Below, in pieces: positions 21,760 to 29,658 of a DNA stretch of 44,089 nucleotides. The position numbers were made by a program, and so were the translations under genes. The stretch comes from Candidatus Gastranaerophilales bacterium. Lineage in GTDB: Bacteria > Cyanobacteriota > Vampirovibrionia > Gastranaerophilales > Gastranaerophilaceae. The stretch is taken from the NCBI GenBank assembly GCA_947588745.1, contig CANPYW010000015.1, forward strand, positions 1 through 44,089. The letters run 5' to 3'. Within the stretch, counting starts at the first letter, position 1. Each line of letters starts with the position of its first letter. Below the pieces are notes generated by a model. The model made no database searches. It saw only the letters and a list, made by a program, of their open reading frames with translations, and was not told the DNA's origin.

Positions 21760-21891
21760 ACTTTTATATTAATTTTATATATTCTGCATTTCAAATTATT
21801 AAGTTTTGTGAAGTTCTAAAGTTCAATCACAGCAACAATTTTGCTTTTTAATAAAAAAAAATTAAAAGAAATAACATAAAAAACTAAAGTT

Positions 21892-21920
21892 TTGATATAA
21901 ACAACCGATATAAATATTGT
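21892..21920 (+). promoter_or_regulatory. Promoter of small RNA copy 1
   Basis: TTGATA at 21892-21897, a 17-base spacer and TATTGT at 21915-21920. Just upstream, overlapping the -35 box, is AAAACTAAAGTTTT (21880-21893), a short palindrome kept in both copies. Confidence 0.55.
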
Positions 21921-21925
21921 AAAAA

Positions 21926-21994
21926 GGGCATTAGCCCATATAACCTCCCTCCCCAAAAGTCTAGTAGCCGCCTTATTATGGTCGGCTTTTTTTT
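21926..21994 (+). ncRNA. Predicted 69-nt small RNA with anti-SD motif, copy 1 (Yfr1-like architecture)
   Basis: A short hairpin GGGC-ATTA-GCCC (21926-21937) is followed by about 28 unpaired bases that contain CCTCCCTCCCC (21944-21954). Then comes a terminator hairpin, AGCCGCC with GGTCGGCT (21966-21972 / 21980-21987), and a run of eight T. A promoter with correct spacing lies directly upstream. The C-rich run can pair with purine-rich Shine-Dalgarno sequences. The layout (5' hairpin, open pyrimidine-rich motif, terminator) matches cyanobacterial Yfr1, whose motif is different (ACUCCUCACAC). No homology is claimed. Confidence 0.7.
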
Positions 21995-22058
21995 ATGAAT
22001 ATTTTTTGTCCGGTAAATATTAAATAAACTTAATATACATAAATAAAAAACTAAAGTT

Positions 22059-22088
22059 TTAATAAAAAACAACCGATATAAATATTAT
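22059..22088 (+). promoter_or_regulatory. Promoter of small RNA copy 2
   Basis: TTAATA at 22059-22064, an 18-base spacer and TATTAT at 22083-22088. Compared with copy 1, the -10 box is better and the -35 box and spacing are worse, so the two copies may differ in strength or control. Confidence 0.5.
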
Positions 22089-22093
22089 AAAAA

Positions 22094-22162
22094 GGGCATT
22101 AGCCCATATAACCTCCCTCCCCAAAAGTCTAGTAGCCGCCTTATTATGGTCGGCTTTTTTTT
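22094..22162 (+). ncRNA. Predicted 69-nt small RNA with anti-SD motif, copy 2
   Basis: The RNA portion is identical to copy 1: hairpin GGGC-ATTA-GCCC, open CCTCCCTCCCC (22112-22122), terminator hairpin and T8. It ends about 80 bases before the next gene's start, which has its own AAGGAG. Together with copy 1 it fills the 483-base gap between the genes. Confidence 0.7.
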
Positions 22163-22242: not shown

Positions 22243-23979
22243 ATGAATTTTGAATTTAATTTAACTGTTGAAGAGCTTAAAAAAAGAACAGATAAAGATA
22301 TTTTGATAAGAAAACCTTTGCTTGATAAGGATGCAAAAGAGTATCAAACACTTGATGAAGGTGATAAAAAAGCTCTTATACATTTGGCAAAAGCGGCAGA
22401 ATTTGCCAATTTAATATATATGAAGCAGGATAACGAATTAAATTTGGAATTTATGAACTTTCTAAAAGAAGAAATTAAAAAAGGAAATAAACAAGCCGAA
22501 CTTACAAAAATATTATTTGACGCACAACTTGGAATTATCGGTATGGATTCCGAATCAAACCCCGTTATTCTTGCAAAAAATGTAAAAGAATTACCGGGTA
22601 AAGCATTCTATCCCTCGGATTTAACTAAAGAAGAACTTCAAAATATTCTGAAGAAAATGATTTTAAACGGAGAAAAAGAAGAAGTTAAAAACATATTAAA
22701 CCAAAGAACAATCGTAAAACGAAACGGAGATAAGCTTAAAGCATTTGATTATACTTTGGAATTTAAAGAGGAATTTGAAAGTATAGCTTCAGAGCTGGAA
22801 AAAGCAGCCGAAGTTTCTACAAACAAAGATTTTAACGAATATTTGACACTGCAAGCAGCCGCATTAAGAACAAATGACCCGATGCTTGATGCAAAAGCGG
22901 ACAAAAAATGGGCATCACTACAAAATACACCTTTGGAATTTACGATATCAAGAGAGCAGTATGCGGATTTGATGACCGGAAGCGTTATTGAAGATGAAGA
23001 ATTAAAAGAACTTTTACAAAAAAACGATATCACGCCCGTTTCAAAAGACTCGATAGGAATAAGAACAGGTATAGTAAATAAAGCGGGTACTGATAACTTA
23101 TTAAAAATAAAGCATTTTCTGCCTTTAATGGCACAAAACATGCCTTTAAAAGAAAAATACGAACAAAATATTTCTTCAGAAGAAGATAATCTTCAAACAA
23201 TGGTTGATGTTGATTTAGTTTCATTAAGGGGAGATGAAGGTTCATACAGAGGAGGAATAACAATAGCTCAAAATCTTCCGAATAATGATAAACCGTCACT
23301 CACTATCGGAGGCGGGAGAAGAAATGTTTATCACAGACAAATAAGGACAAGCAGTTCAAAAGAAGCACTTGAACGCAGGCAAAAAAGACTTAATGCAACA
23401 TTAAATCCCGAATTGCATAAATATTACAATCCGGAAGCCGATCATTGGTTTACAATCGGGCATGAGAACGTTCATTCTTTAGGCCCTAAATCAGGTACGG
23501 AAGCATTAGGCAAATATAAAAATATTATAGAAGAAAATAAAGCAGACATGGGTTCGATTGCTTTACTGGATTGTCTTACGGAGGCAAAAGCATATACGGA
23601 AGAAGAAAAGAAACAAATTCTTGTAACTTTTGGGGCAGACTGCTTTTTAAAAGCTAAACCGGATTTATCCCAAGCACACAGAGTAAGAACAGTTATGCAA
23701 GCCTGCTTTTTCATAAAAGAAGGTGCGATATCCGTTAACGATAACGGCATAATAAATATAAACATTGAAAAAATGGTTCCGACTGCGAGAAAAATGCTTA
23801 CGGAAATAATAGAAGTGCAATTATCACAAAATTTTCAATGCGGTGAAAAATATATTAAAGATTACTTTGTTTGGACGGACGAAATAGAAAGAGTATCAAA
23901 AAAACTTAAAGAAATTGATAAATCTTTAAACGGCATGATTCAAACTCCTTTAGCGGATTATTTAACAAGCTTGGAATAA
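22243..23979 (+). CDS. M49-like (dipeptidyl-peptidase III-like) putative zinc metalloprotein
   Basis: 578 residues from ATG 22243, preferred over the upstream frame start at 22195 because AAAGGAG lies seven bases before it. The likely zinc site is HENVH at 407-411 in TIGHENVHSLGP, with EENKAD at 430-435 about 20 residues on. This is the H-E...H plus EExxAD arrangement of the M49 group. Classical M49 has HExxGH (HExxxH), while this protein has HExxH. There is no signal peptide, so it should be cytosolic. The N-terminal half is helical and charged and not otherwise recognised. It is the first gene after the tandem small RNAs. Peptidase activity is inferred. Confidence 0.7.
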   Translation: MNFEFNLTVEELKKRTDKDILIRKPLLDKDAKEYQTLDEGDKKALIHLAKAAEFANLIYMKQDNELNLEFMNFLKEEIKKGNKQAELTKILFDAQLGIIGMDSESNPVILAKNVKELPGKAFYPSDLTKEELQNILKKMILNGEKEEVKNILNQRTIVKRNGDKLKAFDYTLEFKEEFESIASELEKAAEVSTNKDFNEYLTLQAAALRTNDPMLDAKADKKWASLQNTPLEFTISREQYADLMTGSVIEDEELKELLQKNDITPVSKDSIGIRTGIVNKAGTDNLLKIKHFLPLMAQNMPLKEKYEQNISSEEDNLQTMVDVDLVSLRGDEGSYRGGITIAQNLPNNDKPSLTIGGGRRNVYHRQIRTSSSKEALERRQKRLNATLNPELHKYYNPEADHWFTIGHENVHSLGPKSGTEALGKYKNIIEENKADMGSIALLDCLTEAKAYTEEEKKQILVTFGADCFLKAKPDLSQAHRVRTVMQACFFIKEGAISVNDNGIININIEKMVPTARKMLTEIIEVQLSQNFQCGEKYIKDYFVWTDEIERVSKKLKEIDKSLNGMIQTPLADYLTSLE

Positions 23980-29575: not shown

Positions 29576-29638
29576 ATATTTTTTAATTTTTTGTAACATC
29601 ATAAAAAAAATTATAAAGTTTTTTTTTATTATTCCGAT

Positions 29639-29658
29639 AACTAACCTATGAGTTAGTT
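29639..29658 (+). promoter_or_regulatory. Short inverted repeat before the first microprotein gene
   Basis: AACTAAC at 29639-29645 and GTTAGTT at 29652-29658 with six bases between, just upstream of the GGAG ribosome binding site of the gene at 29670. Could be an operator or a leader hairpin. Confidence 0.35.

Follow-up and report, generated by a model that had tools for sequence, protein, structure and literature searches.

What kind of RNA is encoded at positions 21,926 to 22,162 of contig CANPYW010000015.1, from a Candidatus Gastranaerophilales bacterium (assembly GCA_947588745.1), and what could it do in its host? The contig was analysed over its whole 44,089 nt (hereafter, the window). 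A previous annotation made from the letters alone, here called the sequence-only reading, had proposed two copies of a 69-nt RNA with a 5' hairpin, an open motif and a terminator ending in eight U. Sequence and fold agree with this proposal: two near-identical small RNA genes lie in tandem, with cores at 21926–21994 and 22094–22162 (168 nt from start to start), each made of a 5' hairpin, an open CCUCCCUCCCC and a terminator. Comparison with relatives establishes a predicted RNA gene with a two-hairpin structure, a near-invariant open core and, in most loci, a sigma-28-type promoter, which is found upstream of both window copies and had been missed by the sequence-only reading. The element appears to be a genuine small regulatory RNA (sRNA), hitherto undescribed, of an uncultured gut order, and its promoter sequence suggests that the flagellar sigma factor FliA switches on its gene. 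The parts of the two copies are the following.

21885–21911, + strand: sigma-28/FliA-type promoter of copy 1, TAAAGTTT-N11-ACCGATAT, with 14 of 16 consensus positions and a spacer of 11
21917–21994, + strand: predicted small RNA, copy 1, with the 3' end given by the terminator and the 5' end inferred from the promoter
21926–21937, + strand: 5' hairpin GGGC-AUUA-GCCC of copy 1 (fold; helix with compensatory changes)
21944–21954, + strand: open anti-Shine-Dalgarno (anti-SD) motif CCUCCCUCCCC of copy 1 (motif count, fold, unpaired probability)
21959–21965, + strand: second conserved open element GUCUAGU of copy 1 (alignments)
21966–21994, + strand: intrinsic terminator AGCCGCC...GGUCGGCU with U run, copy 1 (fold; covariation in helix 2)
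22052–22079, + strand: sigma-28/FliA-type promoter of copy 2, TAAAGTTT-N12-ACCGATAT, with 14 of 16 positions and a spacer of 12
22085–22162, + strand: predicted small RNA, copy 2, with the same 69-nt core as copy 1 and the 5' end likewise taken from the promoter
22094–22105, + strand: 5' hairpin of copy 2 (fold)
22112–22122, + strand: open anti-SD motif of copy 2 (motif count, fold)
22127–22133, + strand: GUCUAGU element of copy 2 (sequence, alignment)
22134–22162, + strand: intrinsic terminator of copy 2 (fold)

The 69-nt core folds at −17.8 kcal/mol (z −2.58; equalled by 1 of 200 shuffles) into a GGGC/GCCC hairpin, the open motif and a 7-pair terminator stem with a bulge, followed by eight U. 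With up to one mismatch, CCTCCCTCCCC occurs twice in the window, against 0.04 occurrences expected. The terminator of copy 1 was not listed by a simple terminator scan of the window. The second unit, promoter included, is 97% identical to the first across 120 nt (BLAST), and BLAST and a covariance model found these two copies only in the own genome, the model scoring them at 87.4 (copy 1) and 88.5 bits (copy 2). Because of the positions of the sigma-28-type promoters, the RNA would begin 6–9 nt before 21926 and 22094, at ~21917–21920 and 22085–22088, respectively, and would be ~75–78 nt long; of the 69-nt RNA formerly proposed, the core stands and the start would probably lie further upstream. 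The 5' edge of the model was fixed by the trimming of its training sequences and provides no independent evidence for the 5' end. No plus-strand open reading frame (ORF) of at least 20 aa runs across the RNA in the window.

The RNA is widespread among relatives of the host. A 121-nt query matched 34 of the 41 genomes of the window's genus, a few of the weaker matches covering the promoter part only. Covariance model R1, built on an alignment of 33 sequences (2 from the window and 31 of 37 from relatives, with repeats and near repeats excluded), detected the RNA in most of the host's family, with hits in 174 of its 191 sampled genomes and in 39 of its 41 sampled genera. In a draw across the class it was found in 183 of 188 family genomes, in all 5 other genomes of the order and in 1 of 96 others, this last match being weak (E 0.0066) and explicable by chance over 289 genomes. 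Model R2, based on 49 rows of greater diversity, retrieved 167 of 170 family genomes and 3 of 3 other members of the order, and none of 213 genomes outside the order (10 of the same class and 203 of other classes of the phylum). The genome draws of R1 and R2 overlap heavily, and the counts by kinship group were made from kinship-sorted listings. The covariance search that had been suggested for Melainabacteria and Cyanobacteria was positive in nearly all sampled Gastranaerophilales and negative in those 203 genomes, and the RNA family appears, as far as sampled, to be confined to the order Gastranaerophilales.

A core-pattern scan of named species genomes gave at least 112 stretches. Candidatus Gastranaerophilales is the title of 44 of the 80 matches listed; 6 others go under cyanobacterial, Melainabacteria, Scatousia or Adamsella names, 1 is named Clostridia and 1 Bacteroidales. 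R2 confirmed 79 of these 80, the Bacteroidales record failing, and the Gastranaerophilales and Melainabacteria names bear out the lineage that had been guessed from the letters. The record titled uncultured Clostridia (L277) holds a full RNA copy (67.6 bits) and is likely a mislabelled or mixed metagenome-assembled genome. A second genome with adjacent copies, 158 nt apart, was also observed (L303). By eye, contigs end within about 200 nt of the RNA in 9 of 39 genus copies (L003, L007, L009, L014, L015, L022, L025, L040 and L041); the idea that such ends are a trace of lost tandem copies was rejected, the flanks being without a second copy. The core pattern had no exact match in viral contigs, and on this ground phage carriage was rejected. 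In the window no Rfam family besides a tRNA reached its gathering score, and the weak matches of copy 1 were all under gathering scores (best E 0.92). No sRNA of such kind from Melainabacteria, Gastranaerophilales or Vampirovibrionia was found in the literature searched, which included few subscription journals and preprints.

Is the predicted structure maintained by selection on pairing? Most of the genus has a GGGC/GCCC 5' hairpin, some members having GAGC/GCUC, AGGUU/AACCU, GGAC/GUCC or UGUGAG/CUCACA instead, and in several other genera the hairpin reaches at least 10 pairs (e.g., UAUGAAAAAC/GUUUUUCAUA). Altogether, 38 different 5' stems were counted among 74 sequences, 4 weak model matches having been dropped beforehand, and pairing is kept between genera. 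In alignment A3, 94.5% of cells pair. Changes on both sides affect 93 cells, whereas shuffles give 34.6 and sliding the partner column gives no more than 45; in helix 1 all four pairs show such changes. The named genomes supplied a second set of 80 rows, 76 of them distinct, in which 97.7% of cells pair and 146 are changed on both sides, against 57.3 in shuffles and at most 58 with the partner slid. Since alignments A3 and A4 had been fitted to the structure, they lean toward it. On the unfitted alignment A1, RNAalifold did not return helix 1, because loop lengths are unequal, and instead paired the 5' GGG arm to the C-rich core; this pairing was rejected, since the arm varies freely and the local hairpin is kept.

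Over the 74 sequences the C-rich stretch is predicted to be open (mean unpaired probability 0.89, lowest 0.58), and the AGUCU part has a value of 0.81, against 0.48 in both the 5' and the terminator part. In genera other than that of the window the core reads CCUCCUCCCC-AAGUCU(A/G)GU-AGCCG with few departures, CCUCCUCCCC being the variant of most genera shown and CCUCCCUCCCC that of the window's genus, and GUCUAGU, which reaches to the terminator, also belongs to the conserved open part. The 16S anti-SD sequence is contained in the core CCUCC(C)UCCCC. The stretch is accessible and evolutionarily conserved, as in trans-acting anti-SD sRNAs; the structured small RNA with an exposed anti-SD stretch put forward by the sequence-only reading is supported by the fold and the unpaired probabilities. 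Covariation and motif conservation in relatives, named beforehand as a refutation test, are both present.

As to the promoter, the FliA consensus is given as TAAAGTTT-n11-GCCGATAA in the cited part of PMC2859248. A FliA-type site matching at least 12 of 16 positions was detected at 29 of 40 loci (mostly one per genus; best match within 82 nt round the model start), compared with 4.8% of dinucleotide shuffles, and at 52 of 77 loci of the named-genome set. For this latter set shuffles gave 5.0% and the motif read backwards 3 of 77, and 11 was the commonest spacer (29 of 52). The 77 loci are those of the 80 named-genome matches with enough upstream sequence, and the two sets partly overlap. In most loci the RNA gene thus carries the FliA-type promoter of sigma-28-dependent sRNAs. 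FliA is above the curated cut-off in 187 of 188 family genomes and in 5 of 5 others of the order. Each of the 41 genus genomes has a FliA-family protein above this cut-off as well as a match to FHIPEP (FlhA family), which in most of them spans the full length. Eight own-genome proteins were scanned with Pfam; the sigma factor was among them, and members of the rod, transglycosylase, FliE and FliF families lie in a single run. In the own genome the strict promoter pattern gave 10 sites, both RNA copies included, versus 1 for the reversed pattern. The other strict sites precede proteins without telling family match, one of them with a calpain-type protease domain; the FliA assignment rests on the consensus and its conservation.

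Some of the proteins following FliA-type sites (own genome C14:9404, C6:34992, C12:44925 and C18:1520; L046, L047 and L049) start with MGLN and one with MGLAASQARFLGITARKSN, and these proteins are possibly substrates of the flagellar export machine. Within the window, a FliA-type site with 15 of 16 consensus positions (29614–29640) stands before a short ORF reading MITELEKKEAVEQEIKKFFENIDNIKSCVDIFGS. In other genera (e.g., L121, L128 and L125) an operator-like element, GGATGATATT and variants, lies directly upstream of the −35; with up to two mismatches it is present at 21 of 39 loci against 5.4% of shuffles. By eye, it forms near-perfect inverted repeats in L121 and L128 and is not evident in the window's genus.

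The RNA could act alone or as the leader (attenuator) of a downstream gene, and for the latter the window offers a candidate, as a same-strand gene begins 80 nt past copy 2. Across 53 loci, however, the nearest downstream ORF (at least 60 aa, mechanical calls) is on the opposite strand in 23, and neighbours vary between genera, the largest group of alike neighbours comprising 10 loci, 9 of them from the window's genus. This neighbour comparison, together with the promoter-like site and terminator at each window copy, led us to reject the leader, which we regard as extremely improbable. The flanking genes are mostly not conserved, which argues for a stand-alone RNA, and the own promoter-like site and terminator make it best read as a free RNA. 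The two proteins flanking the RNA in the window showed no Pfam family over cut-off; the one encoded after copy 2 (22243–23979, 578 aa) contains GHENVHSLG, by eye like a zinc-protease motif. The reverse complement of the RNA shows GGGGAGGGAGG...ATG, resembling a ribosome-binding site and start. An opposite-strand gene was rejected: in the window only two codons precede the stop, and inspection of relatives by eye showed no conserved long frame.

Which known RNA does it resemble? The sequence-only reading had pointed to cyanobacterial Yfr1, described in the cited part of PMC2190773 as two hairpins round an unpaired conserved stretch of 16–20 nt, the second hairpin being the likely terminator, with core ACUCCUCACAC, a length of 54–69 nt and a frequent location beside guaB and trxA. 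The layout is indeed alike, as would be expected of a Yfr1 orthologue in a non-photosynthetic sister class; kinship is not supported by the rest. The Yfr1 undecamer is absent from the locus within two mismatches (3 hits elsewhere in the window, 2.7 by chance), the open stretch measures 28 nt (21938–21965), the length is ~75–78 nt with the start taken from the promoter or 69 nt with that of the sequence-only reading, the promoter is of FliA type, no guaB or trxA was recognisable by Pfam in the two flanking proteins, and R2, a model of this RNA and not of Yfr1, found nothing in the 203 sampled genomes of other classes of the phylum. Orthology with Yfr1 is accordingly very improbable.

Among flagellar sRNAs, FlmE (CJnc230) of Campylobacter jejuni likewise carries a putative anti-SD motif in a single-stranded stretch between two stem-loops; it works within the flagellar hierarchy and represses flgM translation, according to the cited part of PMC11187230. 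The RNA described here departs from FlmE: it comes with a FliA-type promoter and a terminator of its own, its C-rich core is long, and no flagellar gene is kept next to it. FliA dependence was demonstrated for the 47-nt FlmR (CJnc170) of C. jejuni, as reported in PMC11187230, and for UhpU, MotR, FliX and FlgO of Escherichia coli, sigma-28-dependent RNAs that are derived from untranslated regions and involve Hfq in the account of PMC10578931; for our RNA it is inferred. The alpha-r14/cuckoo RNAs of Rhizobiales (NfeR1, SmelA075) combine an ultraconserved CCUCCUCCC anti-SD motif, which is also present here, with freely diverging stems, and the cited parts of PMC10746234 and PMC3927594 assign them three hairpins (four in SmelA099) with the motif in each loop. 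Our RNA differs in that its single motif lies between two hairpins and is accompanied by another conserved element, and the sharing of the motif with such structurally different RNAs suggests convergence on copying the 16S tail. By anatomy no family fits; in its way of working the RNA would come closest to FlmE, with a FliA switch and a motif of the cuckoo type.

Taken together, we consider it probable, though by a measured judgement, that the element is a FliA-switched, stand-alone, trans-acting sRNA of ~75–78 nt which covers ribosome-binding sites. RNA polymerase with FliA would transcribe it once FliA is free, at a late stage of the flagellar (or flagellar-export) programme. Its 5' hairpin would shield the RNA end and hold the core open, and the core CCUCC(C)UCCCC, probably with AAGUCURGU, would pair with the ribosome-binding sites of chosen mRNAs, thus blocking ribosome binding, perhaps without Hfq. 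That the core is open and nearly invariant argues for this kind of pairing. The likeliest targets, at a guess, would be early flagellar, envelope or adhesion mRNAs that are shut down at the start of the late programme.

To look for partners, duplexes were predicted with the leaders of 200 mechanically predicted genes in 204 kb, about a tenth of the own genome, selected partly for flagellar genes. The lowest energy (−23.7 kcal/mol; next −19.6, mean −8.3) was obtained with a ten-G run before a 528-aa protein. This G10 leader (own genome C6:6462–8048, L205) stands out in an AT-rich genome as a possible phase-variable tract, and its protein has no Pfam match. The runner-up was the antisense of the RNA locus itself (−19.6 kcal/mol), and a transglycosylase gene between flgC- and fliE-type genes (C2:91073–91777) and the gene just upstream of fliA reached −19.6 and −17.9 kcal/mol, respectively. 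GGAGG occurs in 12 of the 200 leaders and GGGAGG in 1, therefore few mRNAs would match the whole core. The ORFs behind the inspected GGGGAGG-ATG sites were considered as flagellar targets and dropped, not being flagellar by eye.

Several observations weigh against a FliA-switched RNA that covers ribosome-binding sites. On the target side, GGGGAGG-N3-13-ATG occurs 166 times in 41 genomes versus 114 for the reversed pattern, and of the matches listed at least 31 are the RNA's own antisense; the transglycosylase and fliA-upstream pairings were rejected, as they are not kept in 20 and 12 relatives, respectively, and neither the motif count in the 41 genomes, nor the duplexes in the 204 kb, nor the relatives revealed a conserved target. 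Hfq (Pfam PF17209) was found in none of the 41 genus genomes, by a search that was positive in 5 of 14 control genomes and also gave no hit in the control Synechococcus elongatus, so a divergent Hfq could be missed. On the side of the promoter, 11 of the 40 diverse loci have no clear FliA-type site, and a looser scan of the 204 kb gave 32 sites versus 25 backwards, therefore a single FliA-type site is weak evidence; no site was seen before a late flagellar gene in the 204 kb (by eye; most downstream proteins unscanned). Nor does FliA imply the RNA: of 96 class genomes outside the order 42 possess FliA, and a single weak RNA match turned up in such genomes. One family genome (G365) has the RNA without a FliA hit. 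Finally, the number of pairs with both-side change exceeds shuffles only slightly and tells less than the cell counts: it is 7 in A3 against 5.5 in shuffles (reached by 19 of 500) and 6 in the second set against 5.1 (reached by 157 of 500).

Helicobacter RepG pairs with G-tracts in mRNA leaders. A comparable binding to RNA other than ribosome-binding sites, either to such tracts or as a sponge for another sRNA, would suit the C/U-rich core, the lowest duplex falling on the G10 tract among the 200 leaders and the extended SD matches without clear excess. The G10 tract is, however, one case in about a tenth of one genome, and G-tracts leave AAGUCURGU unexplained; we hold this to be rather unlikely. 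The same negative target searches could also be accommodated if the RNA were a protein decoy or scaffold and the conserved core a protein-binding site: the near-invariant block CCUCCUCCCC-AAGUCURGU-AGCCG across genera and families exceeds what a short pairing seed needs. No candidate protein is at hand for this, and pairing explains directly why an anti-SD sequence lies in the motif, so that a decoy or scaffold, judged from the sequence, has a small share of probability in our view. The covering of ribosome-binding sites by a FliA-switched sRNA is the explanation we retain.

Accounts of flagella in Gastranaerophilales differ (cited parts of PMC3787301, PMC5877343 and PMC4040986), and 3 of 9 early genomes had a complete flagellar set, with partial sets in the others, as stated in PMC4040986. 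The near-universal presence of FliA and the RNA in the sampled family makes a role without a complete flagellum worth asking about. It is possible, if rather doubtful, that FliA and this sRNA together form a core regulatory module throughout the order, one that has outlived the flagellum. Were this true, a non-flagellar programme of secretion may run on the reduced flagellar export machine, and its regulon would consist of FliA, the RNA and the proteins behind FliA-type sites, some of which begin with MGLN or MGLAASQARF. The RNA represents a comparatively well-supported sRNA family of an uncultured, gut-dwelling sister lineage of Cyanobacteria, whose core and models are directly searchable in metatranscriptomes. 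It bears on how an anti-SD RNA chooses its targets in bacteria with no Hfq found, and on the role of the FliA and flagellar export genes that the Gastranaerophilales have retained.
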